A stretch of DNA of 33,617 bases from Candidatus Levyibacteriota bacterium (GCA_013816255.1 JACDET010000001.1:1-33617), one strand, 5' to 3'; counted from the first letter of the stretch, positions 12,297 through 33,617 are shown. Made by a program: numbers and translations. The notes: generated by a model not told the origin, from the sequence alone.

Positions 12297-12390
12297 CGTC
12301 ATTGCGAACATAGTGAAGCAATCCCCTGCAGCTAATTGAGATTGCACCCTACGGGCACAAGACCGCGTCGCTCCACTTCTCGCAATGACG
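12297..12390. repeat. Intergenic palindromic repeat unit (murC/murB gap)
   Basis: Terminal inverted repeat cgtcattgcga ... tcgcaatgacg; contains 31-nt core identical in inverse orientation at 20136-20166. Confidence 0.8.
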
Positions 12391-13809
12391 TTATTGAAAG
12401 CTCAATTTAGTATGGATCGTATAGATATCTCCGGCTCCCATTGAAACTAAGATTGTATCTGATCTGAACCTATTTTGATTAATATATTCTACCACATCAA
12501 GAAGCGTAGGCAGGTATAAAACCTCTTTATGATGACTACTTAAAGCGACTGCGAGATGTTTTGCTGTCACACTTGCATCAGGTTTCTCCCGCAAGGAGGC
12601 ATAGATATCGGTCAGAACGACAGTATCCACACTTTCAAAAACGCGAAGAAAATCATTAAAGAGCTGTTTGGTCCGTGAATACGTATGTGGTTGAAAAATG
12701 CATACGATTTTTTTCTTCGGATATTGCTTACGTAACGCACCAAGTGTTTTTTTAATTTCAGTTGGATGGTGCGCGTAGTCATCATAGACTTTGGCCCCAG
12801 TCCGTAAGTCTCCAATGAATTCAAGACGGCGTTTTGAACCTTGGAAAGCAAGTAATCCTTTTCTAATCTTATCAATCGACAGTCCAAGCTCAAGTGAAAC
12901 AATGAGAGCGGCTAATGCATTGAGGGCATTATGCTCACCAACCACCCGGATAGCAAATTCACCCAATGGTACACCTTGTGACTTTACCCAAAAGAAGGTT
13001 TGATCACCGGAGATATTTACTCGCTCCAGAATATAATCATTGGTTGTGCCAAGACCATATGTCACAGCTTTACGCTCATATTCTTTTAAAAGCTTTCGCA
13101 CTTCAGGATCATCTCCACACGCAATTAATAATCCTTTGGCCGAGATTTGATTTGCAAATGTTAAAAACGTTTCGCGGACATCATCGATTGTAGGATAGAT
13201 ATCAGTATGATCATGCTCAATATTGGTAAAAACCGTAAGCGTCGGATGCTGCCATAAGAATCTTGCCCGCTTATCATGCACAGGTTCTGTCGCGTATTCA
13301 TCAGCTTCAGCAATAAAGTATCTTCCAAGTCCCAAATAGCCTGGCGCACCCAGAGATTTTACGTCCCCCGTCCCAATGATATAGGAAGGGTCAAGACCAT
13401 TTTCTTTGAGAATTGTCGCAACCATAGCGGTTGTGGTCGTTTTCCCATGTGTTCCCGCAATTGAAACACCTGTGAACTTCCGGTCAAGTACTTCCCCTTT
13501 CATAAACAACCCCGTTGCCTCACCTGCTGACATAACTGGAATTTTCTTCAACTTCGCAGTTTGCACTTCAATATTGTCATAACCGCCATGGGCTCCTGTT
13601 GTAATGACAAAATCAGGCTCTTGGATATGCTCAGGCGCGAATGAGGGATGAACAACAATTTTTGCCCCTTTCAAAGCGGCATCTGTAATGAATTCTTGAT
13701 CGATATCAGACCCTGTGACATCATACCCAGCTTCTTTAGCAATAAGTGCCAAAGGAGTCATATTCGTCCCTTTAATACCAACAAAATATATTTGCTTTTT
13801 CTTTGTCAT
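12391..13809 (-). CDS. murC: UDP-MurNAc-L-alanine ligase MurC
   Basis: GIKGTNMTPLALIAKEAGYDVTGSDI, SIAGTHGKTTTTAM, VYDDYAHHPTEIK, FQPHTYSRT. Confidence 0.95.
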   Translation of the reverse strand: MTKKKQIYFVGIKGTNMTPLALIAKEAGYDVTGSDIDQEFITDAALKGAKIVVHPSFAPEHIQEPDFVITTGAHGGYDNIEVQTAKLKKIPVMSAGEATGLFMKGEVLDRKFTGVSIAGTHGKTTTTAMVATILKENGLDPSYIIGTGDVKSLGAPGYLGLGRYFIAEADEYATEPVHDKRARFLWQHPTLTVFTNIEHDHTDIYPTIDDVRETFLTFANQISAKGLLIACGDDPEVRKLLKEYERKAVTYGLGTTNDYILERVNISGDQTFFWVKSQGVPLGEFAIRVVGEHNALNALAALIVSLELGLSIDKIRKGLLAFQGSKRRLEFIGDLRTGAKVYDDYAHHPTEIKKTLGALRKQYPKKKIVCIFQPHTYSRTKQLFNDFLRVFESVDTVVLTDIYASLREKPDASVTAKHLAVALSSHHKEVLYLPTLLDVVEYINQNRFRSDTILVSMGAGDIYTIHTKLSFQ

Positions 13810-13815
13810 ATATTT

Positions 13816-13881
13816 GTGTCATCCTGAACGCAGTGAAGGATCTCAAATGTGAGATTCTCCGGCTTTGCCTCAGAATGACAC
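13816..13881. repeat. Intergenic palindromic repeat, same family as the in-CDS copy at 33034-33102
   Basis: gtgtcatcctgaacgcagtgaaggatctcaaatgtgagattctccggctttgcctcagaatgacac. Confidence 0.8.
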
Positions 13882-13882
13882 G

Positions 13883-14668
13883 TTACTCTAAACTTATAAC
13901 ACTCACAAATCTCCCTGATCTATCTCCGCTACGGTATGAATAGAGTGTTTCTTTATTACATTGAGTACACTCCTCCGATACCTCAATATTCCCTTCCAGT
14001 ATACCCTCTTTCAAAAGACATTGCACTGCAATTGCTCTAAGATCAAGCAAATATTTCTCCTCATTATTGTTCGAGTGAAGTCGAGAACTTTCGTTTCCTC
14101 GCTTCACAATGTGCTTTGACTCCTTAAAGAGTATATTTTGAAATGTTGGAAATGCTTTCTCAAATTGCAAAGCAACTTCCTCTCCCACTTCATAACATTT
14201 CTTTTCAATACCAGGACCAATACCGACAATGATATCCTTGGGATTACTATCAAAAGTACTATGCATCTGTTGCACTGTATTTGCAATGATATTTTTTAGA
14301 AGTCCTTTTGTTCCAGCATGTGCTGCTCCAATTACGTTTTTTTGCTGATCATAAAAAAGAATTGGAAGACAATCTGCGGTAATAATCGCCAACGGAAGAT
14401 TTTTTTGTTTGGTCACCATCCCATCACTTTTAGGGATAACTATTTCTCGATCATTCTCAATAAGTGCGACTGTCCCACTATGCACCTGGTCCATACAAAG
14501 AGGTATTGATTTCAAATCAACTGTTTTCCCAAACTTCATGAGATTTCCATGATGGATGCTCAGATCCTCTTTCTTCATAGAATCAAAAGCTTTTGTAGAA
14601 ACTGCGTGCTTAATCGTTGGGAAATTTGATAAGTTTTGAAAGGTATAAATTGAATCTTTAAAATGCAT
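13883..14668 (-). CDS. pgeF: Peptidoglycan editing factor PgeF / laccase-domain (YfiH) family
   Basis: MDQVHSGTV, DGMVTKQKNLPLAIITADCLPILFYD, GAAHAGTKGLLKNI. Confidence 0.85.
   Translation of the reverse strand: MHFKDSIYTFQNLSNFPTIKHAVSTKAFDSMKKEDLSIHHGNLMKFGKTVDLKSIPLCMDQVHSGTVALIENDREIVIPKSDGMVTKQKNLPLAIITADCLPILFYDQQKNVIGAAHAGTKGLLKNIIANTVQQMHSTFDSNPKDIIVGIGPGIEKKCYEVGEEVALQFEKAFPTFQNILFKESKHIVKRGNESSRLHSNNNEEKYLLDLRAIAVQCLLKEGILEGNIEVSEECTQCNKETLYSYRSGDRSGRFVSVISLE
14065..14089. repeat. 25-nt repeat tattgttcgagtgaagtcgagaact inside pgeF
   Basis: Identical to 15920-15944; encodes part of ESSRLHSNNNEE just before the YLLDLRA segment. Confidence 0.85.
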
Positions 14669-14671
14669 ACA

Positions 14672-15913
14672 TTATTTTTTATCCCGCAATACTTGCTTTG
14701 TAATTTCATTCTCATCCCACGGTTCTTCACCACGTCCATAATTCATAGACTTCTCATGGCCCTTCCCGGTCATAAGCACTGCATCACCTTTTTGCGCCAA
14801 AGTAATAGCCAAACGAATCGCTTCTTTACGGTCCGAAATAACAAAAACATATTTTTTCTCTTTCTGAACGCTAGACGCTAGACGCGAAACGCTATCTCCA
14901 GTAATAACCTCAAACCGTTTATCTTTAATTCCTGAAAGAATTTCTTTATTAATCTTCTCAATTGGCTCATCTCTCGGATCCTCTGAGGTAATGATAATAA
15001 TATCTGAGAAGCGTGCCGAAATATTTCCCATTTCAGGTCTCTTATATGTATCTCTTCGAGCAGCAGCACCAAAGACATGAATCAATCGTTTGCTCGCAAG
15101 CTTTTTCACTTCAGGTAAAATTTCAGTAAATGAATTAGGTGTATGCGCGAAATCATTGATGACCAAAAAGTCTTTATTGTAGAGCACTTCCTGCCGACCA
15201 GCTGGAGCTTTAAAAGTCGCTATCCCTCTTCGTATACCTTCTTCAGGCAAATGCAGTGACTGTAAAGCCGCAATTGCTGCAAGACTATTATATTTATTAA
15301 ATTGCCCTATGAGTTTGGTAGTGAAAGGAAAGACATGAGGATTCACATCAGCATCTTTTTTCATCCCGTAAGTAATGATAGCTTCTTTGCCTTTCAATTC
15401 TTTTTTCCTAATCTGCCAATATGAGTGATCATCTTTATTGACTACGGCAACTTTGGCAGTCCGCAATAATTTCGATTTTGCCTTTACATAATTTTCATAC
15501 GTTTTGTGATAATCCAAATGCTCACGAGTTACATTGGTGATAACACCAACATCAAAATGCACACCTGCAACGCGGTGCTGATCAAGAGCATGGGAAGTAA
15601 CTTCCAGAACAATATATTTCACACCTTCTTTTTTGGCTTTTTTGATATATGACTGAATAGCAAAACGACCAGGTGTTGTGATATGAAAACCTAAATCACT
15701 CGCGCGCCCATTGATGATAGCGCCATTTGAAGAGATCAATGCGGCTTTATATCCACTTGTTATTAAAATATGATAAATGAGACTTGAGGTTGTGGTCTTA
15801 CCATCTGTTCCTGTAACACCGATTATAGTCAATCCACGAGCTGGAAATCCATACATGATGTTCGCAAGAACAGCTTGACCCAGATGATAGATGTTTTTTG
15901 TTTTCTGCCACAT
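14672..15913 (-). CDS. murE: UDP-MurNAc-tripeptide synthetase MurE, N-terminally short
   Basis: IIGVTGTDGKTTTSSLIYHIL, EVTSHALDQHRVAGVHFDVGVITNVTREHLDYH, FAHTPNSFTEIL, SEDPRDEPIEKI. Start reassigned to ATG 15913 (MWQKTKN); residues upstream in the ORF track are repeat-derived. Confidence 0.85.
   Translation of the reverse strand: MWQKTKNIYHLGQAVLANIMYGFPARGLTIIGVTGTDGKTTTSSLIYHILITSGYKAALISSNGAIINGRASDLGFHITTPGRFAIQSYIKKAKKEGVKYIVLEVTSHALDQHRVAGVHFDVGVITNVTREHLDYHKTYENYVKAKSKLLRTAKVAVVNKDDHSYWQIRKKELKGKEAIITYGMKKDADVNPHVFPFTTKLIGQFNKYNSLAAIAALQSLHLPEEGIRRGIATFKAPAGRQEVLYNKDFLVINDFAHTPNSFTEILPEVKKLASKRLIHVFGAAARRDTYKRPEMGNISARFSDIIIITSEDPRDEPIEKINKEILSGIKDKRFEVITGDSVSRLASSVQKEKKYVFVISDRKEAIRLAITLAQKGDAVLMTGKGHEKSMNYGRGEEPWDENEITKQVLRDKK
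14867..14893. repeat. Heptamer tandem (acgctag acgctag acgcgaa acgct) inside murE
   Basis: Encodes SVSRLASSV; ctagacgctagac also occurs at ~30817-30829. Confidence 0.65.
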
Positions 15914-15919
15914 AACTAC

Positions 15920-15944
15920 TATTGTTCGAGTGAAGTCGAGAACT
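15920..15944. repeat. 25-nt repeat immediately upstream of murE
   Basis: Exact copy of 14065-14089; starts 6 nt upstream of the murE ATG. Confidence 0.85.
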
Positions 15945-15956
15945 AAACTCACTATT

Positions 15957-16535
15957 CTATTTCAAATACTCTCTCAACAATTCCAAAATTTTATCATAAT
16001 ACGTGTAATAAATATATCCTGTCAATACAAGCAAACCAGGAAATATAATATACTTTTCAAAAAACTCTCCTGTCGTCACACGAAATGCACGGATTGGCGG
16101 GAAACCAAAACTCCAAGGAATTGGCAAAAGCCATGCAACTCCTTCTTTGGTAAATGTATCCATAATTAAATGCGACACAAACCCAATCATAAAAGCCCAC
16201 CACACCACATCCAGATCAATATTGGGAATACTCGGTTGAAGGAAGTTAAGAAATAGTTGGAATAAAATGCCAAAGAGAAAAATCCCTAGAATTGAATGTG
16301 AAAGAAAGCGATGACCACCCAAAAGTCTGCCAAAGAACCTCCCAAACATCGGCCCGATCGGGACATTCCTCCAAAAAGGTGCTGTAGATTGATCAATATC
16401 CGGAGCAATCCCTCCAAGCATATTGGCCCCCAACGCAACAATTGCTGTACCCATAGTCATTTCAGGAAGCGGTTGTGTCACGACAACAACACTCAATGCA
16501 GTAAAAGCAGCCAAATCATGCGTTCTCCCTAACAT
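15957..16535 (-). CDS. Membrane-bound metal-dependent hydrolase, YdjM/DUF457-like
   Basis: LGRTHDLAAFTAL, LGGIAPDIDQSTAP, GGHRFLSHSILG, SHLIMDTFTKEGVAWLLP. Start set at 16535 (MLGRTHD), 7 nt after TATACT. Confidence 0.8.
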   Translation of the reverse strand: MLGRTHDLAAFTALSVVVVTQPLPEMTMGTAIVALGANMLGGIAPDIDQSTAPFWRNVPIGPMFGRFFGRLLGGHRFLSHSILGIFLFGILFQLFLNFLQPSIPNIDLDVVWWAFMIGFVSHLIMDTFTKEGVAWLLPIPWSFGFPPIRAFRVTTGEFFEKYIIFPGLLVLTGYIYYTYYDKILELLREYLK

Positions 16536-16542
16536 AGTAACC

Positions 16543-16551
16543 AGTATAGCA
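16543..16551 (-). promoter_or_regulatory. Extended -10 (TGCTATACT) 7 nt upstream of ATG at 16535
   Basis: + strand agtatagca; gap 16536-16542. Confidence 0.5.
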
Positions 16552-16572
16552 AATTTTGCAGAACCAATCATA

Positions 16573-16633
16573 CGTCATTCTGGCTTGTCCAGAATCAGTT
16601 TTTGTGAGATGCTGAACTAAATTCAGCATGACA
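16573..16633. repeat. Palindromic repeat between divergent genes; its ATGACA end supplies the DUF192 ORF start codon
   Basis: cgtcattctggcttgtccagaatca... and tgctgaactaaattcagcatgaca; first half closely matches 26335-26359. Confidence 0.75.
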
Positions 16634-16960
16634 GTTTTTAATCAAACAAAGCAAACTATTCTCGCAAACAATATCATCGAAGCAAAATCCTTCATCGATC
16701 AGTCTCTCGGCTTATTAAAATACCCAACTCCAACTGCAATGCTCATCAAAACTAGATTTGGTATCCATACATTTTTTATGAAATACGCGATTGATGTATT
16801 GGTGTTGGATAAAGAAAATCGTATCGTCAAACTAAAGGAAAATCTTAAACCAAATGTTATCTTTATCTGGAACCCAAAATACGATACTGTCGTAGAATCA
16901 CGCGAAGGCACAATTAAAAAGACAAATACACAAGTTGGAGATGTACTGATACTAAAGTAG
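16628..16960 (+). CDS. DUF192 family protein
   Basis: IIEAKSFIDQSLGLL...MLIKTRFGIHTFFMKYAIDVLVLDKENRIVKLKENLKP. Confidence 0.8.
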   Translation: MTVFNQTKQTILANNIIEAKSFIDQSLGLLKYPTPTAMLIKTRFGIHTFFMKYAIDVLVLDKENRIVKLKENLKPNVIFIWNPKYDTVVESREGTIKKTNTQVGDVLILK

Positions 16961-16970
16961 CTAGTTCAGC

Positions 16971-17531
16971 TTAAAGATTATACTGTATATGCCTAAAATC
17001 CGGAGTAACCATACTGGAATAAACAATTTTTTCACCATAATGTCTTTCAATAGCTCTATCATATCCTTGATGAGATAGGGCACGTATTACAACACTCTTA
17101 AACCCTTTATTTCGTAAATCTTCGTCTAATGGTTCCATTAGAGCGCCGACATATCCGTTGCCTCTGTGATCTTTATCAATGATTGTTGCTGTTATTTCTG
17201 CTTTTGTATCTGAAGGAACCGTATCATTTGCTTCCTTGGACCACCCATAACTATGTTGTGTTAAAGCAAAACCAATTACTTTATTTCCTTCTCTTAGCAA
17301 CACTTTTGTATTATCAATCGTATGAGGATTTGTAAAGCTCTTGTCTACCCACTCATGTATATCATCAGTTCGAAAGACACCACTACTTTGAGCCTGACGA
17401 GCTAAATCGGTAATATCATCTTTTACAGCGTCCCATTTCTCGGGAGTGTATCGAAATACTTCTCCTCTCACCGTAGGTTGATCCCTTCTGGAACCTTTGT
17501 CTGAACTTCCGCCTTTGGATTCTGCTCCCAT
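16971..17531 (-). CDS. GNAT-family N-acetyltransferase
   Basis: ITATIIDKDHRGNGYVGALMEPLDEDLRNKGFKSVVIRALS...YDRAIERHYGEKIVY. Confidence 0.65.
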   Translation of the reverse strand: MGAESKGGSSDKGSRRDQPTVRGEVFRYTPEKWDAVKDDITDLARQAQSSGVFRTDDIHEWVDKSFTNPHTIDNTKVLLREGNKVIGFALTQHSYGWSKEANDTVPSDTKAEITATIIDKDHRGNGYVGALMEPLDEDLRNKGFKSVVIRALSHQGYDRAIERHYGEKIVYSSMVTPDFRHIQYNL

Positions 17532-17540
17532 AATAATGGA

Positions 17541-17569
17541 ATTATACTAAGATAGAACTAAGATGTCAA
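17541..17569 (-). promoter_or_regulatory. Perfect consensus promoter TTGACA-17-TATAAT
   Basis: + strand tgtcaa 17564-17569 and attata 17541-17546, 17-nt spacer; 9 nt to ATG at 17531. Confidence 0.8.
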
Positions 17570-17643
17570 ACTATAGGATTCTGATATTGGTTACTCTCAA
17601 TAATTAACAATTGAGCAATATAACAATAATAATCTATATTTTC

Positions 17644-17652
17644 TGCTATAAT
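17644..17652 (+). promoter_or_regulatory. Extended -10 TGCTATAAT, 7 nt upstream of ATG 17660
   Basis: TGC-TATAAT; gap 17653-17659. Confidence 0.65.
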
Positions 17653-17659
17653 CACATTT

Positions 17660-17989
17660 ATGAAACCACTAATTACCTACGATGATTTTGCAAAGCTTGA
17701 TATCCGAGTCGGGACAGTTATCAACTGTGAAGAGAAAGAAGGTTCTGAGAAATTACTCCGTCTTACTGTCGATTTCGGAGAACATGGCATGCGAAATATT
17801 CTTTCAGGAATTAAGAAGTGGTACAAACCATCAGATTTGATTGGCAAACAATTCGTCTTCGTCTTTAATCTAGCTCCACGGAAAATGATGGGTGAAGAAT
17901 CTGAGGGAATGATTCTAGCAGCAGAAGGCAAAAAGCCGCAACCTCTCAAACCAAAATCAAAAGTACCCCCAGGCGCACCAATACTCTAA
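17660..17989 (+). CDS. tRNA-binding (OB-fold) domain protein, CsaA / MetRS-beta-like
   Basis: [32 protein letters not shown]...[22 protein letters not shown]. Confidence 0.85.
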
Positions 17990-17994
17990 TTTAC

Positions 17995-18066
17995 TGTCAT
18001 TCCGAGCGTAGTCGAGGAATCTCTTTCACCTGATTATAAGATCCCTCCACTTTGGTCGGGATGACA
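17995..18066. repeat. Palindromic repeat between convergent genes
   Basis: tgtcattccgagcgtagtcgaggaatct ... agatccctccactttggtcgggatgaca; same family as 25495-25583. Confidence 0.8.
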
Positions 18067-18074
18067 ATAAATCG

Positions 18075-19772
18075 CTACTTATCTTCGACAATCGGTTCCG
18101 TTGGTGGGATACTATAATAACTCAAAATATTTCGCGCTACATTAAAAAATATTGGTGCTGCTGTCTCAGAACCATAAATCGAAGTTGATGGCCGGTCAAC
18201 GACAACAAGCATTAAGAACTTCGGATCATCAGCAGGTGCAAAACCTACAAATGACGCAATGGTCTTATTTGCATCATAATGTCCTTCGACAGGGATTTGT
18301 GCAGTACCAGTCTTCCCAGCGATTCTATAGCCTTTTGGCGCTGCCCATTTCGATTCTCCATCTTCAACTGCTTTGACCATCATCTCAGTCATAACCTTGG
18401 CTGATTTTGCTGAGATAGGACGTCCTACTTGCTTTGGAGGAATTGGAATAACATTGCCTTCTGCTGTCTCTACTTTGGCAACAACATGTGGCTCCATAAG
18501 TTTCCCCTCGTTTGCAATCGCGCTAAAAGCAGTTAACAATGTAATTGGTGTTAAGGTTAATCCTTGACCAAATGTTGCGGTTGCTTGATCGATCTCATAC
18601 CAAGAATCCCGCTCACGCAAACTTGGATAGACTTCTCCCTGCAGATCAATACCCGTTGCACGTCCAATCCCAAACTTATCCATGTACGATAACATCCGGT
18701 CCAATCCCAATAGCCTACCGGTAAATACCATACCTGTGTTATCTGAATGCACGATAACATCAGTCATTGAGCTGTTTGCAGTATATTTATCATTCCATGT
18801 CTTGATTTCATATCCCGTGATCTCAACAGGTCCCGCACAGATAGTACATCTGGTATCTGCTTTTAAAAGTCCTGCATCGAGCGCTGATGCCATGATGAGT
18901 GGTTTGAAAGTAGAACCAGGTTCATAGGCAAAAGAAATAAATGGATTAGAATAGAGTTTATCCGAAAAATCCTGATATGACCGGGGATCATAGGTCGGGA
19001 AAGAAGACATGGCGAGAATGCCACCTGTTTTTGGATCCATTATTGCGGCTGTCCCACCCACAGCACCATACGCTTCAATACCTCTTTTTAATTCTTGGTC
19101 AAGCATAAATTGAATTCTGCGGTCAATGTGTAAGATCAAATCTCTTCCATCAACTTTTTCAGTATTATCATTCATGTTGGCCAGAATCGGTTGTCCTCTC
19201 GCGTCTTTGACAACTATAGCGACACCATCTTTACCCCGCAATTGCCGATCATAATATCCTTCCAGACCAAAGTATCCTTTATCATTTCCTTCATCGTCAC
19301 GACCAACAAACCCGAGAAGGTTCGCAGCAGTTGTTGCCTCAGGATAAAAGCGCAATGTTTGGTCTTGAAACCCAACACCTGGTAATTTTTTAGCTTCAAT
19401 TTTCTCTTTGAGACTATGTTCAATTGGTGACTTCAGTGGCACCCAGAATTTATTTTTTGAGAGTTGCGCGCTAATTGTAGCTTCATCAATATCGAGTAAT
19501 TTGCCAAGTATCTCAGATTCTTTTTCTTTATCTTTTACTTCTTTGGGATTGGCAAATGCGAGATATGCTAATTTGTTTGCTGCAATCGCATACTCATCGG
19601 AAGTCTTAATCTCACCGCGAATAGCCGTAAGTGTCACTTGGGCATCGTATTGTGCTTGACCAAGTGAAGATAATTCTTGTGCACGAACAACCTGCCAATA
19701 AAACAAGCGCGAGATGATAAGAGAAAATAAGAAGAGAAAAAATAGTAACGTAAAACGGTATCGCCAACTCAT
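18075..19772 (-). CDS. ftsI: Penicillin-binding transpeptidase FtsI/PBP2-type
   Basis: N-terminal TM; EPGSTFKPLI (SxxK), HSDNTGMVF (SxN), GKTGTAQIP (KTGT). Confidence 0.93.
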   Translation of the reverse strand: MSWRYRFTLLFFLFLFSLIISRLFYWQVVRAQELSSLGQAQYDAQVTLTAIRGEIKTSDEYAIAANKLAYLAFANPKEVKDKEKESEILGKLLDIDEATISAQLSKNKFWVPLKSPIEHSLKEKIEAKKLPGVGFQDQTLRFYPEATTAANLLGFVGRDDEGNDKGYFGLEGYYDRQLRGKDGVAIVVKDARGQPILANMNDNTEKVDGRDLILHIDRRIQFMLDQELKRGIEAYGAVGGTAAIMDPKTGGILAMSSFPTYDPRSYQDFSDKLYSNPFISFAYEPGSTFKPLIMASALDAGLLKADTRCTICAGPVEITGYEIKTWNDKYTANSSMTDVIVHSDNTGMVFTGRLLGLDRMLSYMDKFGIGRATGIDLQGEVYPSLRERDSWYEIDQATATFGQGLTLTPITLLTAFSAIANEGKLMEPHVVAKVETAEGNVIPIPPKQVGRPISAKSAKVMTEMMVKAVEDGESKWAAPKGYRIAGKTGTAQIPVEGHYDANKTIASFVGFAPADDPKFLMLVVVDRPSTSIYGSETAAPIFFNVARNILSYYSIPPTEPIVEDK

Positions 19773-19778
19773 AATATA

Positions 19779-19787
19779 AGTGTATCA
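19779..19787 (-). promoter_or_regulatory. Candidate extended -10 (TGATACACT) 6 nt upstream of ftsI ATG
   Basis: + strand agtgtatca; gap 19773-19778. Confidence 0.35.
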
Positions 19788-19812
19788 AAGTGTAATGAGT
19801 ATTCAAATGTAT

Positions 19813-20094
19813 TTACCTTTTTGCTAAAGGTAATGGAGCTGCCATATTAAGGTGGGACTTGGTAGGAACAAAGCCCATAGATTTCGCTTTGGCATTAATA
19901 TTGGTAAGTGAGGCTGCAAGTAAATATTGTTCTTTCAGTAGTTCATTCTCTTTTTGATACTCTTCAACTTGTGTCTGCAAATCAACTAATGCGTTACCAT
20001 TTGTTGAAATGCTATTCACGAGAGAAATCCGCACAAGAGAAAGAGCAACGACAATGGCAAATAGACTACCTAATAATAAAACTGGTTTTTTCAT
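19813..20094 (-). CDS. ftsL: FtsL-like septum protein
   Basis: MKKPVLLLGSLFAIVVALSLVRISLV TM followed by VDLQTQVEEYQKENELLKEQY coiled coil; between rsmH and ftsI. Start reassigned to 20094. Confidence 0.65.
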   Translation of the reverse strand: MKKPVLLLGSLFAIVVALSLVRISLVNSISTNGNALVDLQTQVEEYQKENELLKEQYLLAASLTNINAKAKSMGFVPTKSHLNMAAPLPLAKR

Positions 20095-20106
20095 AATACT
20101 GTTTTT

Positions 20107-20206
20107 GTCATTGTGAGAAACCCACGATAGTAGATGACGCGGTCTTGTGCCCGTAGGGTGCAATCTATAGTAGTAGAGATTGCTTCGCTACGCTCGAAAT
20201 GACAAC
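20107..20206. repeat. Palindromic repeat unit upstream of ftsL
   Basis: gtcattgtgag ... ctcgaaatgacaac; core 20136-20166 is the exact reverse complement of 12339-12369 (31 nt). Confidence 0.8.
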
Positions 20207-20209
20207 GTA

Positions 20210-21103
20210 TCAACTTTTCTCAAAAACTCGCAATTTTGAACTTCTCGACCGGTTATTTATCTCTATCTCTTCATCAGTCGGTACTACTGGCTTTTTTGTA
20301 ATAATCTTTCCTAATCCTTTTTCTTCAAATTCTAGAAAAGCACGCTTCACGATACGATCTTCTAGTGAGTGAAACGATATAACAGCTAATCGTCCTCCAC
20401 TCTCCAAAAGATTCACGGCTTTTGGAAGTGCATCTTGTACACTATGCAATTCATCATTCACTGCGATCCGTAATGCTTGAAACACTTTGGTCGCGGGATT
20501 AATTCCCTTTTTTGACCATGGAACTGCTTTTCTGATAATTTCAGAAAGTTCAGTTGTCGTTTCAATCCTTCTTATCTGCCGCGCATTAATAATACTTTGT
20601 ATTATTGGACGAGCCGACCATTCTTCTCCTAATTTAGTAAATAACTCATATAGTTCATTTTTATTCAGTGCATTAACTAAATCTGTCGCACTCACTGACA
20701 AATCTTGATCCATCCGCATATCAAGCGGACCTTCTTTCTGAAAACTAAACCCCCTCTCAGCACTATCCACATGATGGCTAGAAATACCTAAATCCAAAAG
20801 TATCCCTGCGACATTCTCAAAATCATTAGCCTTTGCAATCGTATCAATATCCCGAAAATTGCCTTTGACTAAAATAATGTCTTCACCAAATCTTAAATCT
20901 TTAATCCTAAATCCTAAATCTTTTTCTACAAAATCCAATGCTTCTTGATCGTGATCAATCCCTAAAACTTCCCCCCCAGCTTCTAAAATCAACCTCGTGT
21001 GTCCGGCGCCACCAAGCGTTCCGTCAATATATTTACGGCCCGTTCGTACATTGAGCAGCTCAATTGTTGGTTGTAAGAGTACACTTACGTGATAATTATT
21101 CAT
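20210..21103 (-). CDS. rsmH: 16S rRNA (cytosine-N4) methyltransferase RsmH (MraW)
   Basis: YIDGTLGGAGHT, LGIDHDQEAL, GILLDLGISSHHVDSAERGFSFQKEGPLDMRMD, RLAVISFHSLEDRIVK. Confidence 0.96.
   Translation of the reverse strand: MNNYHVSVLLQPTIELLNVRTGRKYIDGTLGGAGHTRLILEAGGEVLGIDHDQEALDFVEKDLGFRIKDLRFGEDIILVKGNFRDIDTIAKANDFENVAGILLDLGISSHHVDSAERGFSFQKEGPLDMRMDQDLSVSATDLVNALNKNELYELFTKLGEEWSARPIIQSIINARQIRRIETTTELSEIIRKAVPWSKKGINPATKVFQALRIAVNDELHSVQDALPKAVNLLESGGRLAVISFHSLEDRIVKRAFLEFEEKGLGKIITKKPVVPTDEEIEINNRSRSSKLRVFEKS
20888..20922. repeat. Heptamer tandem repeat inside rsmH (aaatctt aaatctt taatcct aaatcct aaatctt)
   Basis: Five 7-nt units; encodes DLGFRIKDLRF. Confidence 0.8.
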
Positions 21104-25468: not shown

Positions 25469-25494
25469 TGGAAACTTATTAATGTGCTATCTTA

Positions 25495-25583
25495 TGTCAT
25501 TCCGAGCGGAACGTAGTGTAGTCGAGGAATCTTACTCACCACAGGCAGTTGAAAAAGATCCCTTCACTTCGGTCGGGATGACA
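25495..25583. repeat. Palindromic repeat between glyS and recO
   Basis: tgtcattccgagcgga...gtagtcgaggaatctt ... agatcccttcacttcggtcgggatgaca. Confidence 0.8.
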
Positions 25584-25592
25584 AATAGATTA

Positions 25593-26270: not shown

Positions 26271-26283
26271 AGGCAGTCCAAAT

Positions 26284-26292
26284 AGTATAGCA
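26284..26292 (-). promoter_or_regulatory. Extended -10 TGCTATACT, 13 nt upstream of recO ATG
   Basis: + strand agtatagca. Confidence 0.45.
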
Positions 26293-26334
26293 CTTTAGGG
26301 AAGATGATTCGAGCAGAGCAGTAATAAAATATAT

Positions 26335-26414
26335 CGTCATTCTGGCCGTGTCCAGAATCGGTCATCATTCTTATATGGTTTTAGCAGACTGATCCTGGAC
26401 AAGCCAGGATGACG
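26335..26414. repeat. Palindromic repeat between recO and the DUF4012 gene
   Basis: cgtcattctggccgtgtccagaatcgg ... gatcctggacaagccaggatgacg. Confidence 0.8.
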
Positions 26415-26430
26415 GGAAGACAAACGCTAA

Positions 26431-28434
26431 TTAGAGTTCTAATTTCGTCTCTTTATCAGTAGTGAGGTTAAACATCTCAACAGTTTTACCATTGATGATT
26501 GTTTGATATTCATGACCTGCTGTACCTGGCTGTTTTTGAATAAGCAGTGGAAGTGGTGAGTTCTTTTCGAGTTTGAAAGGTAACTTGTATGTAACAGTCA
26601 ATGTACCTACACCTTTTGGACGGACTGTGACAAACCCATCAATAACTGTTTTGCCAAGTTCATCATAAGTAGTCATCTTTACTTGTGAACCTTTACTATC
26701 GACAAGCTCACTGCCTTGTGGAACATAAATACGGATCCAATCACGGTATTCAGCATTCAAGCAAAGCCCACCGCGCTCAAGGTTACAATCAGATGGAGGG
26801 AAAGGATTTTTGTATTTAATTGTTAATGTCTTGGTGATGGTCCCGTCTGCATCGACTTTGTACTCATTATCAACTCTTTCTTCCATAAAGATATTTACCT
26901 TGGCGCCAGAGAAGTTGACTTCGTTAATATGGAGATAATCACCTTCAAATGGTCTGATTTGTCCAGCAGCATTGAGTGCGACGATACCCTGCTGTGCTTG
27001 CTCATCATACAGTTTGAACATAATATGCTTCTGTTGCGTTTGGGCGATGATTGATTGGAAAAGTGGACCCCAATACTGTTGTGGTGATGACGAAAGAGCT
27101 TTGACCATAATTGCCGAGATCAGGTCCCCAATAACACTTTTGCGATCTGTCTTGATGTAATTAACAGGACGGGAGATATCATTTTCTAACTCATAAATGA
27201 TTTGTGGACAGTCACAACGTGGATCATTGACAGTCGTAAATGTCTGTCCACCTGCTTGTACTTGATCGTCAAGAATTTTGACTGTTGAGACAAGAACGTG
27301 TGTATCAATCGCGATAATACCATCAACTTCTTCTTTCAAAGCAGCCCTTTCATACATCTCTTCAAATGTCTTCATTGACTCAATAAAATCTGGCGATAAA
27401 TTACTATCTCGCAAGTTAAGTGTATATACTTTTGGCAAATACTTCAGGATTGGAGCAGGAGCTTTTGGCTTGTTGCGTATCGAATCATCAAGTTTGTAGA
27501 TATCATCTGATTTCTCAAATTTAATAATACCCTTGTCGATACTAAAGATTGCATACGCTGTGATAAATCCACCGGTTGCACGGAGTTCTTTATCATTTTG
27601 GAAGAGAACAAGATAACGTTTTGCTTCTTTTTCACCTAAGAGTGATGGTAGTGTTTTGATAAGGGGTTTGGCATCACTGACAGCAGTTGCTGTCTGGTCC
27701 GCTGTCAGTCGTAAAGTTGTCAATTGATCTTTCACTTGTGATCCAAAAATAAGCTTAGGATAGTGATCTGGATTTACTTGATCAATCTCCTTTTGTACTT
27801 TAACGATTGATGATTCAATTTTATCTATCTCTGGTGTGATCTTGCCCATACTCAGAACTGCTGTTTTAATTCTATCTTCGGTTGAACCACCAGCAAAACT
27901 ATCATCACCCTTCAACCCCAATACATCAGCATATGGAGCCAAAGAATCAGTTACAGTCTTTGCGCTCTCAAGACCATAAGTTGCAGCATTCATCATGTGA
28001 TCCGCATCGCTATAGTACCAACCAACAACAGGAACAAATTTTAATGGGACCATGTAATGAAGGTTTTTCTTTGTCTCTTCTAAGTATTCTTGTGTTTTTG
28101 TAATTTCTTGCGAAGCGAGTTCAATATTTTGCTTCTTCAAAGCACTGGAAACTAATTGTGATTGGCGGTAGGTTTTAAGGCCTGATTGATATGTCGCGTA
28201 TGCTGGAATAGCAATGAGTACAACGAGTAATGCAAAAATTCCCAAGCCGATAGAAAGCTTTTTGGAAAATCTAAACTTTTTTGGACTACTCTTTCTTCTT
28301 TTTGCCATACTATCCTCTGTTATGCTCTGACTTTTTGCGAAATCCTGTGGTGCCTTTTTAACAGTACTTGCATGAGTACTGGCAGTAGGTGTTCGTGATT
28401 GTTGAGCAAATTCAATTTTATCAAATCCTGACAT
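26431..28434 (-). CDS. DUF4012 domain protein, membrane anchored
   Basis: KRYLVLFQNDKELRATGGFITAYAIFSIDKGII...; N-terminal TM; adjacent to glycan genes. Confidence 0.85.
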   Translation of the reverse strand: MSGFDKIEFAQQSRTPTASTHASTVKKAPQDFAKSQSITEDSMAKRRKSSPKKFRFSKKLSIGLGIFALLVVLIAIPAYATYQSGLKTYRQSQLVSSALKKQNIELASQEITKTQEYLEETKKNLHYMVPLKFVPVVGWYYSDADHMMNAATYGLESAKTVTDSLAPYADVLGLKGDDSFAGGSTEDRIKTAVLSMGKITPEIDKIESSIVKVQKEIDQVNPDHYPKLIFGSQVKDQLTTLRLTADQTATAVSDAKPLIKTLPSLLGEKEAKRYLVLFQNDKELRATGGFITAYAIFSIDKGIIKFEKSDDIYKLDDSIRNKPKAPAPILKYLPKVYTLNLRDSNLSPDFIESMKTFEEMYERAALKEEVDGIIAIDTHVLVSTVKILDDQVQAGGQTFTTVNDPRCDCPQIIYELENDISRPVNYIKTDRKSVIGDLISAIMVKALSSSPQQYWGPLFQSIIAQTQQKHIMFKLYDEQAQQGIVALNAAGQIRPFEGDYLHINEVNFSGAKVNIFMEERVDNEYKVDADGTITKTLTIKYKNPFPPSDCNLERGGLCLNAEYRDWIRIYVPQGSELVDSKGSQVKMTTYDELGKTVIDGFVTVRPKGVGTLTVTYKLPFKLEKNSPLPLLIQKQPGTAGHEYQTIINGKTVEMFNLTTDKETKLEL

Positions 28435-28478
28435 CGTATAATACCCTTCAAACGAAATATTTTTCCGCGTAGATTATT

Positions 28479-28508
28479 ATCATACTGGACTTATTTATCT
28501 GTTGTCAA
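28479..28508 (-). promoter_or_regulatory. Promoter TTGACA-18-TATGAT upstream of DUF4012 gene
   Basis: + strand tgtcaa 28503-28508, atcata 28479-28484. Confidence 0.6.
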
Positions 28509-28525
28509 CTTGACAAACCATGATT

Positions 28526-29194
28526 TTATAATGCGCCTTTGCCTGAAATCATGGCCCATGGAGTTTTTAAGATGATAAAAATATCTAAGAAAATAGACTC
28601 TTTTCGTGCGTAGTCAGCATCCATTTGAATCCGTTTATCAAACTTTACTTCACTTCGTCCTGTCACTTGCCAATAGCCGGTAATCCCTGGTTTGACTGAT
28701 AACACTTCTTTCACCAAATTTTTGGTCTGTGGATATGTCTCTTGTTGCTTTTCAAGTTCTTCTGGATAGTAAGGACGAGGACCAACGAGACTCATTTCTC
28801 CTTTTAAAACATTTACCAGCTGAGGAATTTCGTCCAATGAATACTTGCGGATAATTGTACCAAAGCGGGTAATTCGTGGGTCATTTTTCACTTTATAATT
28901 GCCACCTTTTTGCTGTTCTTCGTATGCTTTTTTAAATTTAGGATCAGTCTTGAGAAGATAGTATGCGTTAACAATCATTGAACGAAATTTATATGGATAG
29001 AAAAATTTATTGTCTTTTCCAACACGACGCGGTGTATCAGCCAAAATTGGTCCTTTTGTTTCAAGTTTGATTGCAATAGCGACAACAACAATAATTGGAG
29101 AAAAAATCACCAAAAGTATAATTGAGGAAAAAATATCTATGATCCTTTTGGTAATACTGTAGATCATGCTTTTATGTAATTCTGTTGAAGACAT
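28526..29194 (-). CDS. Undecaprenyl-phosphate sugar phosphotransferase (bacterial sugar transferase)
   Basis: KRIIDIFSSIILLVIFSPI, RVGKDNKFFYPYKFRSM, YSLDEIPQLVNVLKGEMSLVGPRPYYPEE, KPGITGYWQVTGRS. Confidence 0.93.
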   Translation of the reverse strand: MSSTELHKSMIYSITKRIIDIFSSIILLVIFSPIIVVVAIAIKLETKGPILADTPRRVGKDNKFFYPYKFRSMIVNAYYLLKTDPKFKKAYEEQQKGGNYKVKNDPRITRFGTIIRKYSLDEIPQLVNVLKGEMSLVGPRPYYPEELEKQQETYPQTKNLVKEVLSVKPGITGYWQVTGRSEVKFDKRIQMDADYARKESIFLDIFIILKTPWAMISGKGAL

Positions 29195-29195
29195 T

Positions 29196-30281
29196 TTAAA
29201 CCAGATGCTCGTAATCAGTACCACTTAGATTTTGGACAAACTTTTTAATCTTTGGAACAGAATCTTTTGGACAGATAAGAATAACATCTTCCATACTGAC
29301 GACTACTAACCCTTCCAGATCAATACCCACGATAAGCTGCTTGCTTTCATTGTGCAAAATTGAATCGGTACAACCTTCAAGAAGAATTTTTCCTTTTGTA
29401 ACATTTGCTTCAACCGTATCGCTAAGCGCCTCTTTCAAAGCTTCCCATGCTCCAATGTCACTCCAGCCAATATCGGCCGAAATAACACACCCAACTTTGG
29501 GATCCATCTTTTCTAAGATTGCATGATCAAATGAAATCTTTTCAATTTGCGGATACACTTCTTCAAGTACTTGCTCATACGCATCTGTTTGATATGCATC
29601 GTGAATCTTTTTTAAGTGAGCAAACAATTCTGGTGAGAATTCTTCAAACATTTTCCAGAGGAGCGCCGGGGTTGTTGCGAAGTAACCAAGATTCCACGCG
29701 TGCTTATTGTCAGTTGCAAATTCGTTTGCTAATTCACTTGGCGGAGCATATTGAAACGCTTTGAACTCGTGAAGAGCAAGCCCATCAATAGTTTCAGTTT
29801 GCTCACCAAACTCGATATATCCAACATTCTGATTACCATAGCGTGGTTTTTGTGCGATAAAAACAATCTTATCTGGATTTTCAAGAACCTTTTTCTCAGC
29901 TGTACGCAAGATTTTGCGGAACAGTGCTTCTTTCTTCACCAAGTGGTCACTTCCCCACAGAAGAACAATTGGTTCGTTTGGATTAGTTTTTACAAATTGT
30001 GCAATTACCAAACCGACTGCAGGTCCTACGTCCCGCATTTCAGGTTCAACAATGACATTTTTTTCAGGCAAGCTAGGAAGCTGCTCTGTTATGTGAGGTG
30101 CATATTGTTTTCCTGTTGAGATAAAAACATCTTCCCATTTAAACTCCGGGAAAAGCTTGTGGACGGCAATCTGCAACATTGAACGGTCGGCAATAATCTT
30201 GCCAAATTGCTTTGGGGCACTCTTTCGGGAAAGAGGCCATAGTCGGCTTCCAACTCCTCCAGCGAATAAAACAATCTTCAT
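29196..30281 (-). CDS. manC: Mannose-1-phosphate guanylyltransferase
   Basis: LFAGGVGSRLWPLSRKSAPKQF, VIVEPEMRDVGPAVGL, DIGWSDIGAWEAL. Confidence 0.9.
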   Translation of the reverse strand: MKIVLFAGGVGSRLWPLSRKSAPKQFGKIIADRSMLQIAVHKLFPEFKWEDVFISTGKQYAPHITEQLPSLPEKNVIVEPEMRDVGPAVGLVIAQFVKTNPNEPIVLLWGSDHLVKKEALFRKILRTAEKKVLENPDKIVFIAQKPRYGNQNVGYIEFGEQTETIDGLALHEFKAFQYAPPSELANEFATDNKHAWNLGYFATTPALLWKMFEEFSPELFAHLKKIHDAYQTDAYEQVLEEVYPQIEKISFDHAILEKMDPKVGCVISADIGWSDIGAWEALKEALSDTVEANVTKGKILLEGCTDSILHNESKQLIVGIDLEGLVVVSMEDVILICPKDSVPKIKKFVQNLSGTDYEHLV

Positions 30282-30289
30282 ATATAAAT

Positions 30290-30295
30290 ATTATA
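30290..30295 (-). promoter_or_regulatory. Candidate -10 TATAAT, 8 nt upstream of manC ATG
   Basis: + strand attata. Confidence 0.4.
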
Positions 30296-30298
30296 GTA

Positions 30299-31423
30299 TT
30301 AAATAACTTTCTTCACAAGTCGGAGAAACTCTTCTTTGAATTTCATTTCACTAAACAGTCCAGCTTGCTTTTTTGCAGCTTTTGGATCAAATTGCATATT
30401 TTCAAAGACTTTCAGAGCTTCTGTTAATGACTCGACGTTTTGTTCATCAAAAAATATACCCGTCTTCCCTTCTTTTATTGTATCCAATGCTCCACCTTTT
30501 CGGAGTGCTATGACAGGTTTTCCAAATGATTGCGCCTCAACAACAACCAAACCAAAGTCTTCAAAAGCTGGGAAGATGAGCGCTTTACAATTTGTATAGT
30601 ATTGTACTAATTCTCTGTCTGAAACATCTCCAACGAATTCCACGGTAGGTCCTGCTAATTTTTCTAATTCTTTTCTCAGACTTCCTGTTCCTACAATTTT
30701 TAAAGGAAGCTTAAGCCTATTACACGCTTCAATCGCTAAATCTACCCGTTTATATTGTGTAAACTTGGATAACCGCGAAACAATAAGAAAGTAATTATTG
30801 TTTTTGATAGGATTACTAGACGCTAGACTCTGCTTGCCCCGTGAAGCCTTGGCGAAGTGGGGACCCCTAACGCCTAATGAAACCGGTGGATAGATAATAA
30901 ATGAATCTCTTTGATAGTATTTTTTAATTCTTTCTTGCACTTCAGTAGATATAGCGACCAACACATCAGGACGCGCAGCCGCAGCCTTGTCCCATTTACG
31001 CAAATATGAAACAACAGGATGCGCAGCCATGCGTAGCGGGCGGTTAGTAAAGTATTCTTCATACCCACTCCACAAATACCGTGTAGGAGTCAATATATAA
31101 CTGATATGTTTGGTGCCTGGCTTGGTTACAATGCCTTTTGCCGCCTCACTCGTAATTGATATAACAAGATCATACTTATCAAAAGAGAACCGTTCAAATG
31201 CGAGAGGCATCATAAAGGGATACATCTCATGATTTTTTATTGCATGTGGATTTTTTTGCAGAAAAGAAGTTTTGATATCAAACACTTCAGCCCATGGTGC
31301 TGTTTTTTTATTATATACTGACGTAAAAAGAGGGGCTTTCGGAAATATTTTGTTGAGAGCCAAGAGAACTCGTTCAGCTCCTCCCCATTTATTTACCCGA
31401 TCGTACACTAGTGCTACTTTCAT
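30299..31423 (-). CDS. GT4-like glycosyltransferase with in-frame repeat insertion
   Basis: MKVALVYDRVNKWGGAERVLLAL, IVSRLSKFTQYKRVDLAIEA, FPAFEDFGLVVVEAQSFGKPVIA; foreign-looking RGPHFAKASRGKQSLASSNP segment. Confidence 0.9.
   Translation of the reverse strand: MKVALVYDRVNKWGGAERVLLALNKIFPKAPLFTSVYNKKTAPWAEVFDIKTSFLQKNPHAIKNHEMYPFMMPLAFERFSFDKYDLVISITSEAAKGIVTKPGTKHISYILTPTRYLWSGYEEYFTNRPLRMAAHPVVSYLRKWDKAAAARPDVLVAISTEVQERIKKYYQRDSFIIYPPVSLGVRGPHFAKASRGKQSLASSNPIKNNNYFLIVSRLSKFTQYKRVDLAIEACNRLKLPLKIVGTGSLRKELEKLAGPTVEFVGDVSDRELVQYYTNCKALIFPAFEDFGLVVVEAQSFGKPVIALRKGGALDTIKEGKTGIFFDEQNVESLTEALKVFENMQFDPKAAKKQAGLFSEMKFKEEFLRLVKKVI
30814..30879. repeat. Repeat-like insertion within GT gene
   Basis: actagacgctagactctgcttgccccgtgaagccttggcgaagtggggacccctaacgcctaatg; shares ctagacgctagac with murE copy. 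Confidence 0.6.
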
Positions 31424-32552
31424 ATATCGCGACTGTTTCCTCAGCCATTTTCTGCCAAGAAAACTTTTTCGTTCTTTCTAACCCTTTCTGTATATATGCT
31501 TTATATTTTGATTTGTTTTCCAGAACTTTTTGCATTGTATCACTCATCTGCTGTATATCAAGAGGGTCAAAATAAACTGCTGCGTCTTGGTACACTTCCT
31601 TGAATACCGGTATATCCGATGCAAGGACCAAACATTTATTCTGCATAGCTTCCAAACCCGGCAAACCAAACCCTTCCATAAGTGATGGAAAGAGTAATGC
31701 TTGTGCATTTTGATAGAGAGCTGCTAACTCTTGATCATCAACTGCTCCCGTAAAAATAATTTTCTTTTGCAAACCTATCTTGCCCACTTTTTCCTCAAGT
31801 CTTTGATAAAAGTAATTTTTCTTACCAACCATAATAAGCTTGGTAGCAGGAGAGGCTTTATTGACCAATGCAAATGCTTCAACTAATCTTTCACAATTCT
31901 TATGCGGATACGCATTACCTACATAGAGAAAGTAGGGATAAGCGTTAAGGGGAAAGGGTAAAGTGCTTTTTTCTTCTCTCTTTCCCCTTTCCCCTTTTCT
32001 CTGTAGTGCAAGATCTATCCCTTCATAGGTAACCTTAATTTTATCTTCAGTAACTGGCAGATGATCAATTATTTCTTTTTTGGTTGCTTCAGAAACAGTT
32101 ATAATTTTCTTAGCTGTTTTTGCTGCGTGACGAAGAACATACTTATACGCCAACCGCTTGAAGTGATACACAGGAGAGGGCAATGTCGATGCTTTGCCTG
32201 TTGGAAAATGATTGATGATCAAATCATGAATAGTGATAACGTAGGATTTGGTATACAATATTGGAATCGAGAAGTATGGGAAATGGACAAGATCAAGTGC
32301 CTCATTATCAAGCACTTTAGAAAAAAGTAATTGCTCCTCAACTGTATGCCAACGAATATCTGTAGGAACAACTTTCCATGCACTTTCCTCGGTTCGTGCA
32401 AACTCGAAATCACTACTTGCAAACAATTCAGGGGTAACAAATAAAATATACTTATTCTTTTTATCTATCGCATAAAGCTCTCTTACTAAATTACGGATAT
32501 ATCTCCCAACACCTGTTTGATCCCATAAACGTGCATCAATTCCAATTCGCAT
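31389..32552 (-). CDS. GT4 family glycosyltransferase with in-frame palindrome insertion
   Basis: MRIGIDARLWDQTGVGRYIRNL, YFLYVGNAYPHKNCERLVEAF, LFPSLMEGFGLPGLEAM. Start reassigned from 32582 to 32552. Confidence 0.92.
   Translation of the reverse strand: MRIGIDARLWDQTGVGRYIRNLVRELYAIDKKNKYILFVTPELFASSDFEFARTEESAWKVVPTDIRWHTVEEQLLFSKVLDNEALDLVHFPYFSIPILYTKSYVITIHDLIINHFPTGKASTLPSPVYHFKRLAYKYVLRHAAKTAKKIITVSEATKKEIIDHLPVTEDKIKVTYEGIDLALQRKGERGKREEKSTLPFPLNAYPYFLYVGNAYPHKNCERLVEAFALVNKASPATKLIMVGKKNYFYQRLEEKVGKIGLQKKIIFTGAVDDQELAALYQNAQALLFPSLMEGFGLPGLEAMQNKCLVLASDIPVFKEVYQDAAVYFDPLDIQQMSDTMQKVLENKSKYKAYIQKGLERTKKFSWQKMAEETVAIYESSTSVRSGK
31947..31996. repeat. 17-bp inverted repeat (one mismatch), 16-nt loop, inside GT coding sequence
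   Basis: aaggggaaagggtaaag (31947-31963) / ctttcccctttcccctt (31980-31996); encodes part of RKGERGKREEKSTLPFP. Confidence 0.8.
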
Positions 32553-32558
32553 ACACAA

Positions 32559-32567
32559 AGTATAGCA
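32559..32567 (-). promoter_or_regulatory. Extended -10 TGCTATACT, 6 nt upstream of ATG 32552
   Basis: + strand agtatagca; gap 32553-32558. Confidence 0.55.
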
Positions 32568-32595
32568 CAGGCATAAAAGCAACTATATGGAGAGC

Positions 32596-33617
32596 TTATC
32601 TTAAAACACTCTTTTTCGCATCAATATATACATTATTAAGTCTTTGTGCAATTTCTTTCCAAGTATAATGTTTCTCAATAAATACTCGCCCATTCTTACT
32701 TATGTTTTTATGCAATGTTTTATCTTGCAAAAGCTGGAGTGTTTTTTGCGCTAATTCCTCGGCATTATCGCCTACCATAAGTTCTTTTCCATCTGTTGCT
32801 TGCAATGCATTTGCACTCAAGGGCATTGTGACAACTGGTGTCCCGCAACTCATTGATTCCAGAATCTTGTAACTTGTCCCGCCACCAACACGAATTGGGG
32901 CAAGAAGTATTGTGGCTTCTTGAAATATTTCAGGAGTTGATTTCGAAGAACTTGCTTCATCAAAAAGAATATCCGGGTCAACTGATAAACTTCTAATCGA
33001 TTCAGGAATACTTCTTGCAACGAACCAAAGTTTAATGTCATCCTGAGCATTTGCGAAGGATCTCATATTTGTGGGATTCTTCACTTCGTTCAGAATGACA
33101 TTATTAAGTTTCTCTTTTATTAGCGGCCATATTTCTTTGATAATAAATGCTGCGCTATCTTTATTCTGCAACCACTTAAAGTCTCCTATGAATAGGATCT
33201 TCTTTTCTTTCGTTGTAATTGCAGATTCTAAAGATTTTGATGCAAATAGGTCAGTGTCTACGCCGTTTGAAACAACAGCAACATCCAAATCAAGCTCTTG
33301 AATAACTTTTTGATCATCTTTTGACACAGCTACAACTTTTGACGCATCCTTCCAAAATTTCTCTTCTTCTTTTCTTATTTTTGCGATATCAATTGCCAAC
33401 AGTGGACGCAACGGAAATAGTGCATTATCTTTGAACTTGGTATAGACTTTATATTCGATATTATGTTCTACAAGAATAATTGGAATATTTGTTGGAGGAA
33501 CATTTTGCATCACATAAAAGGTTTCAACATGGATAAGATCAAATGATTCTTTGGCTAGAAGTTCACTAATCTTCTCCTTCATTGCAGAAAGAGTATGTCC
33601 TGTGATCAGAAATGAGT
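32596..33617 (-). CDS. GT4-like glycosyltransferase, N-terminus beyond window, with in-frame 69-nt repeat
   Basis: Frame is open upstream of the listed Met to the window edge (...SFLITGHTLSAMKEKISELL); LVEHNIEY, LFIGDFKWLQNKDSAAFI, LLAPIRVGGGTSYKILESMSCGTPVVTMP. Confidence 0.85.
   Translation of the reverse strand, partial: SFLITGHTLSAMKEKISELLAKESFDLIHVETFYVMQNVPPTNIPIILVEHNIEYKVYTKFKDNALFPLRPLLAIDIAKIRKEEEKFWKDASKVVAVSKDDQKVIQELDLDVAVVSNGVDTDLFASKSLESAITTKEKKILFIGDFKWLQNKDSAAFIIKEIWPLIKEKLNNVILNEVKNPTNMRSFANAQDDIKLWFVARSIPESIRSLSVDPDILFDEASSSKSTPEIFQEATILLAPIRVGGGTSYKILESMSCGTPVVTMPLSANALQATDGKELMVGDNAEELAQKTLQLLQDKTLHKNISKNGRVFIEKHYTWKEIAQRLNNVYIDAKKSVLR
33034..33102. repeat. 69-nt palindromic repeat in frame inside GT gene
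   Basis: aatgtcatcctgagcatttgcgaaggatctc...gattcttcacttcgttcagaatgacatt; encodes NVILNEVKNPTNMRSFANAQDDI; aligns with intergenic copy 13816-13881. Confidence 0.88.

Follow-up and report, generated by a model that had tools for sequence, protein, structure and literature searches.

Tagged palindromes and heptamer arrays in a Microgenomates genome and the apparent independent colonization of the same conserved-protein loops by unrelated repeats

How can short palindromes and heptanucleotide tandem repeats come to lie within conserved genes and leave the reading frame open? This question is raised by a 33,617-nucleotide stretch of DNA (hereinafter, the window) from Candidatus Levyibacteriota bacterium (GCA_013816255.1 JACDET010000001.1:1-33617), in which a sequence-only reading had noticed repeat-derived segments in six conserved genes and related segments between genes, and had attributed them to one active or recently active repeat system that diversifies proteins. 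The source is contig 54 of a Microgenomates MAG (1.55 Mb in 78 contigs, 80% complete) near Candidatus Levybacteria; by RsmH, the closest named relatives are Candidatus Levybacteria/Levyibacteriota (Microgenomates, Patescibacteria). Copy numbers were determined in stretches totalling 1.06 Mb (1.04 Mb without the ~28 kb of N), about two thirds of the genome. Homologues were compared in 60 relatives, with 80 named rsmH loci drawn from many phyla serving as outgroups. An Rfam search of the window yielded no match.

All segments listed by the sequence-only reading were present, either at the positions it gave or displaced by 1-2 bases (Table 1). The seven intergenic sites are all head-to-head pairs of GTC-AT hairpins. 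The GTTC-type hairpins of pgeF, the 5' end of murE and murG, and the CCCC-type hairpin of the glycosyltransferase GT1, belong to sibling families that lack the GTC-AT foot, and both types vary with paired changes in the stem. In the murE array, it is the degenerate copy that would otherwise contain a TAG in frame.

Table 1. Repeats in the window, with coordinates counted from its first nucleotide
Position	Repeat	Location	Residues or remark
5767..5791	GTTC-type hairpin, third copy	murG	84% identical
12297..12390	REP pair, CGTC-tagged, head-to-head, ATTGC stem class	between murB-like and murC-like genes	arm common to 20136-20173
13817..13880	REP pair, TGTC-tagged, head-to-head, ATCCT / ATTCT stems	upstream of murC-like gene	
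14065..14089	GTTC-type hairpin	pgeF	~aa 194-202 (SSRLHSNNN)
14868..14894	ACGCTAG heptamer array	murE	~aa 354-362
15920..15944	GTTC-type hairpin, second copy, identical 25 bases	5' end of murE ORF	possibly upstream of the real murE start
16573..16632	REP pair, CGTC-tagged, ATTCT + ATGCT stems	intergenic	
17995..18066	REP pair, TGTC-tagged, ATTCC + ATCCC stems	intergenic	
20106..20204	degenerate REP pair, TGTC-tagged, long-loop variant	downstream end of rsmH	
20888..20922	AAATCYT heptamer array	rsmH	loop between helix 53-66 and strand 76-80 of model
25495..25583	REP pair, TGTC-tagged	intergenic	
26335..26414	REP pair, CGTC-tagged, ATTCT + ATCCT stems	intergenic	
30814..30879	CGCTAGA heptamer remnant + CCCC-type hairpin	glycosyltransferase GT1	~aa 182-204
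31947..31996	GGGGAAA heptamer arrays in inverted arms	glycosyltransferase GT2	~aa 196-212
33036..33100	complete REP pair, TGTC-tagged	glycosyltransferase GT3	encodes VILNEVKNPTNMRSFANAQDD, ~aa 161-183

The copy numbers of these families are not near one. We identified 236 GTCAT hairpins in 1.04 Mb, 12 GTTC units with at most 2 mismatches (0 with the reversed control), and, in the sample of this genome, 36 heptamer arrays representing 20 kinds. A single architecture is common to the intergenic palindromes and the GT3 insert, namely, T or C, GTC, a hairpin with AT at its foot, and then ATC. The stem bases covary, giving the classes ATCCT, ATTCC, ATTCT, ATGCT, ATCTC and ATTGC. A hairpin follows GTCAT at 10.6% of the sites, compared to 2.8-3.6% for eight control prefixes. 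When all hairpins with a stem of at least 7 were taken regardless of the tag, GTC was the most enriched 5' neighbour (5.3-fold), and of the 98 GTC-tagged hairpins, 88 had AT at the foot of the stem. Among the 181 strict REP units in the 1.04 Mb, the base preceding GTC is T in 141, C in 35, A in 3 and G in 2; pairing of these units is head-to-head in 61 cases, tail-to-tail in one and head-to-tail in none, with spacers clustering near 12 and 37.

Judged by this architecture, the intergenic palindromes and the GT3 palindrome can be classified as CGTC/TGTC-tagged REPs. The CGTC-tagged superfamily was described by Di Nocera, De Gregorio and Rocco in 2013 (PMC3733652), who assigned to it the Neisseria dRS3 elements and the Rickettsia palindromic elements RPE-4 and RPE-6 (placed in CGTC-4 and CGTC-1, respectively). 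The published elements share with those reported here the GTC tag after T or C, the AT stem foot, the covarying stems, the predominance of head-to-head over rare tail-to-tail pairs, the lack of a flanking transposase, and the presence of intragenic copies, some of them in DNA-repair genes. They typically have an 8-9 bp stem, a loop of 4-5 and a 3-bp tail that is mostly CCA (PMC3733652). The same stem and loop lengths hold for the GTCATCCTGAACTTGTTTCAGGATC class here, whereas in the ATTGC and ATTCC classes, the stems are interrupted and the loops are longer; the trinucleotides past the closing C are mostly TCA (31), TCT (19), AGT (19) and CCC (13), along with TCC (16) and only some CCA (12). 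RPE-4 and RPE-6 are, likewise, in-frame palindromes in protein-coding genes, but their host is an alphaproteobacterium rather than a member of Patescibacteria, and heptamer arrays share the same loops in the present case. The phyla listed for CGTC REPs do not include Microgenomates (Patescibacteria).

The REPs differ sharply in abundance between relatives. The REP pattern has 18 matches in this genome, none in the relative from the same genus and 0-3 in each of the other 58 genomes, that is, the expansion is specific to this lineage. Because REPs are abundant only in this genome among the 60, the data suggest that the palindrome system was recently active or expanded in this lineage, in agreement with what the sequence-only reading had proposed.

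That reading, which had noticed no transposase, also pointed to a RAYT, encoded elsewhere in the genome, as a possible mobilizer acting in trans. Under this scenario, Y1 (tyrosine HUH) transposases would move the palindromes as they do in REPIN/RAYT systems, and indeed, the genome contains four intact RAYT-length Y1_Tnp genes, and the REPs are hairpins in head-to-head pairs that could fold in single-stranded DNA. However, each of the RAYT-like genes is bordered by its own, distinct inverted repeat with few further copies, and no GTC-AT units were found beside any of the four. The arrangement resembles the RAYT 'TIRtrons', where RAYT-like genes have their own inverted repeats, but the palindromes studied here are not those repeats; neither of the REPIN/RAYT hallmarks, a GTAG-type tag and a RAYT gene flanked by the same REP, was found. 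Across the 60 genomes, the numbers of RAYTs and REPs were unrelated (rho = 0.02, p = 0.88), and five REP-positive genomes had no Y1 match. In the previous study of CGTC REPs, no transposase was found beside the repeats either (PMC3733652). RAYT-driven mobilization thus appears quite unlikely, and we rejected it as the route of REP spread. In a search for a CGTC 'REPtron' gene, the ORFs lying between REP pairs 300-2500 bp apart differed in size and position, and no obvious recurrent candidate emerged by these properties. Because no mobiliser was identified among the RAYT flanks and the ORFs enclosed by REP pairs, nor did near-identical strains reveal an empty site, we can only infer that the REPs move.

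The REPs are under-represented in genes: 128 of the 181 strict units are intergenic, 10 lie at gene edges, and 43 are within ORFs, although ORFs account for ~90% of the sequence. Family searches identified several of the host ORFs, namely, YchF, Fmt, TopA, MutY, an ATP-citrate-lyase-like protein, ATP-dependent DNA ligase, HolB, a P-type ATPase, RecJ and MutS. The majority function in replication or repair, as was reported for other phyla (PMC3733652), which gives the impression of an enrichment. In GT3, TopA, MutS, MutY, RecJ, the ligase, HolB, Fmt and YchF, the palindromes are in-frame inserts predicted to be translated. Among the predicted insert-derived peptides are VILNEVKNPTNMR in GT3 and VISSATRNPTG in TopA. 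Comparison with protein structures places several inserts in gaps or in a low-confidence loop. The predicted TopA peptide VISSATRNPTGSLTDVRDDK occupies a gap relative to the E. coli structure; the MutS insert sits between two matched blocks, in a gap relative to solved MutS; and the murE array coincides with a gap of solved MurE structures. In the AlphaFold2 model of GT3 (mean pLDDT 91), the insert, flanked by a helix and a strand, is the sole clearly low-confidence stretch (pLDDT 54). Combined with the copy numbers and the homologue alignments, these structures bear out the claim that several genome-wide repeat families are tolerated in frame in loops of conserved proteins.

The heptamer arrays show a strong preference for a single period. 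In this genome, 34 exact runs (at least 12) were detected at offset 7, compared to 0-1 at offsets 4, 5, 8, 10, 11 and 13, and 5-6 at offsets 3 and 6; in the relatives' loci, there were 71 runs at offset 7 and no more than 5 at any other offset that is not a multiple of 7. Short matches do arise in AT-rich coding DNA, and a few hairpin calls in ORFs look accidental (for example, at window position 3959, in ftsA), so that chance or low-complexity coding sequence might have been mistaken for repeats. Yet shuffled controls yielded none or one run at any offset, and the reversed-pattern controls for the repeat families gave 0 matches; the chance reading is therefore refuted for the families as a whole, and we assign it next to no probability. 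Heptad protein repeats (coiled coils) were rejected as the source of the arrays because the DNA identity is at an offset of 7 nt and not merely 21 nt. The exact 7-nt tandem pattern also differs from the adenine-specific template copying of diversity-generating retroelements. The period-7 preference extends to bacteria in general, with the cyanobacterial loci showing it most strongly, in agreement with published reports on Xanthomonas and Nostoc (PMC4692102) and on Beggiatoaceae and cyanobacteria (PMC4679880), in which period 7 is likewise dominant and the arrays are dispersed, with about four units being common. The published heptamers are mainly intergenic and scarce in coding sequence (PMC4692102, PMC4679880), whereas here many unrelated units are found within conserved genes, in loops that recur. 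Intragenic tandem repeats that add flexible protein segments are also reported for Borgs, where they give rise to disordered protein regions (PMC9879509); those are archaeal elements, and the unit here is 7 nt, so that each copy is out of frame.

To what extent do the arrays of different genomes share positions? For the six genes singled out by the sequence-only reading, 64 arrays in homologues map to the query, and 63 of these fall in nine loops that make up 12% of the length. Because the borders of the nine loops were drawn after inspection of the data, the fair test is a permutation of pair clustering, which is free of that bias: 224 of the 427 array pairs are at most 12 aa apart, compared to 29 expected and a maximum of 53 after shuffling. 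Of these 224 co-located pairs, which come from different genomes, just 6 have a heptamer in common, and the similarity between co-located units does not exceed that obtained by shuffling (p = 0.14). Therefore, the same loops appear, from these alignments, to have been independently colonized by unrelated repeats.

The alternative explanation is that the arrays are ancestral in these loops and changed only by sequence drift, without repeated insertion. The recurrence of the same loops in many genera fits such a history, as does the absence of a consistent length difference between loops with and without arrays: those with arrays are significantly longer in only some of the nine cases, so that some arrays may replace existing loop sequence. 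On the other hand, the lack of similarity between co-located units argues against common ancestry, many homologues have no array at the given loop, and even within the genus of the window, rsmH, GT2 and GT3 bear unrelated repeats in the two genomes. Nor are the individual inserts of the window conserved: those in pgeF and GT3 are missing in every relative aligned, and the murE, GT1, GT2 and rsmH inserts lie in loops that vary among relatives and are frequently occupied by another repeat. We consider ancestral arrays unlikely.

Within a genome, in contrast to the comparison between genomes, units are reused more often than expected by chance (9 of 76 pairs vs. 1.8 expected; 0 of 5000 shuffles). 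In several relatives, a GC-rich hairpin is nested in a heptamer array (for example, CCGAAATCC / CTGCCTGCCGGCAGGCAGG / GCGAAATCC), and such nests are also present in cyanobacterial loci; the control for nested arrays employed periods 5, 6 and 8, all with zero cases, and left out periods 9-11, for which short matches suffice. This nesting of GC hairpins in arrays notwithstanding, the notion of one shared repeat system gives way to two processes, one producing mobile-looking REPs and the other tandem heptamers. It is conceivable but improbable that a dedicated 7-nt templating or slippage activity produces the arrays and the nested GC hairpins and continually rewrites tolerant loops of conserved enzymes across Microgenomates.

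The explanation that we consider probable involves two ongoing repeat-generating processes combined with purifying selection that retains repeats in tolerant loops. The two processes would feed the genome independently. In the first, CGTC/TGTC-tagged REP pairs would spread, probably as single-strand hairpins handled in trans; in the second, 7-nt tandem arrays would be created and reused, the simplest route being slippage of the polymerase together with copying from one array to another. New copies of both kinds would land widely, and purifying selection would keep those that lie between genes or in surface loops of proteins, with intragenic survival possible when the length preserves the frame and no stop is read. 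Unrelated repeats would recur in the same loops, since it is these few loops that accept insertions in all relatives. The inserted peptides would be mostly neutral passengers that diversify the loops.

Could the loop inserts, instead, be favoured by selection or programmed, analogously to contingency loci, because variation of cell-wall and surface-glycan enzymes is beneficial? In favour of this possibility, the best-studied carriers here are loops of glycosyltransferases and Mur enzymes, and the repeat units are unrelated between relatives. However, the gene sample was chosen by the sequence-only reading, and elsewhere in the genome, REPs occur in housekeeping genes for DNA repair and translation. 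Furthermore, a loop insert that preserves the frame cannot turn a gene off, and no dedicated machinery was seen. We regard this possibility, too, as improbable: the repeats do diversify proteins as an outcome, with no sign of selection or programming, and the data lend no support to an adaptive benefit or direction, so that diversification is best viewed as a by-product of repeat insertion and purifying selection.

Both CGTC REPs within genes and heptamers in bacteria have been described before. The new part is that, across a bacterial family, unrelated repeats appear to have repeatedly colonized the same loops in orthologous core proteins; we found no such description in the reports consulted, and no pertinent report of repeats in genes of Patescibacteria or Levybacteria. 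Intragenic CGTC REPs are extended to Patescibacteria, with a fresh data set for approaching the missing mobiliser of these elements, and the repeat inserts provide a natural map of where essential enzymes tolerate insertions. If a dedicated 7-nt activity did exist, it would drive loop innovation in general, in place of random slippage followed by selection. Comparison of many genera makes it possible to test the old question of whether inserted repeats generate protein novelty or merely reflect survivorship.

In the heptamer array of murE, the only copy with a potential in-frame TAG (GTC TAG CGT) is degenerate and reads GTT TCG CGT, as would be expected under selection against stop codons, in this single case. 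In intergenic arrays of the genome (loci L061-L140), we identified units including AAACCCT, ACCCTAG, AACCCCT and AAGCACT, and most intergenic heptamers contain CTAA or CTAG, with stops on both strands (18/20). The most frequent, TTTAGGG, is identical to the telomere unit of plants and could form G-quadruplexes. GC-rich hairpins are nested within heptamer arrays at L152, L146, L149, L155, L038, L043, L179, L231 and L232, and, outside Patescibacteria, at the cyanobacterial loci L334, L341, L344 and L347.

We also identified four intact RAYT-like Y1 transposase genes (Table), the terminal inverted repeats of which differ from gene to gene, with CGGG/CCCG at the ends in 3 of the 4; genes with such repeats of their own correspond to the 'TIRtrons' defined by Di Nocera et al.

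Table. Repeat-bearing genes and RAYT-like genes
Feature	Locus	Coordinates
murE array (ACGCTAG)		window 14868-14894
RAYT-like Y1 transposase	L061	C69:3035-3256
RAYT-like Y1 transposase	L062	C52:32806-33042
RAYT-like Y1 transposase	L063	C61:8464-8754
RAYT-like Y1 transposase	L064	C19:18912-19142
fmt	L080	382-1263
MutS, REP insert	L082	14014-16878
MutY, REP insert	L079	
RecJ, REP insert	L125	
TopA, REP insert	L094	
Ligase, REP insert	L127	
HolB, REP insert	L130	

A single methionyl-tRNA formyltransferase gene, fmt, contains three repeat segments, two of them heptamer arrays and the third a REP unit, each in frame. REP inserts are also hosted by mismatch-repair and other repair genes (Table); alteration of MutS by its insert might increase slippage and thereby supply the process that generates the heptamer arrays.
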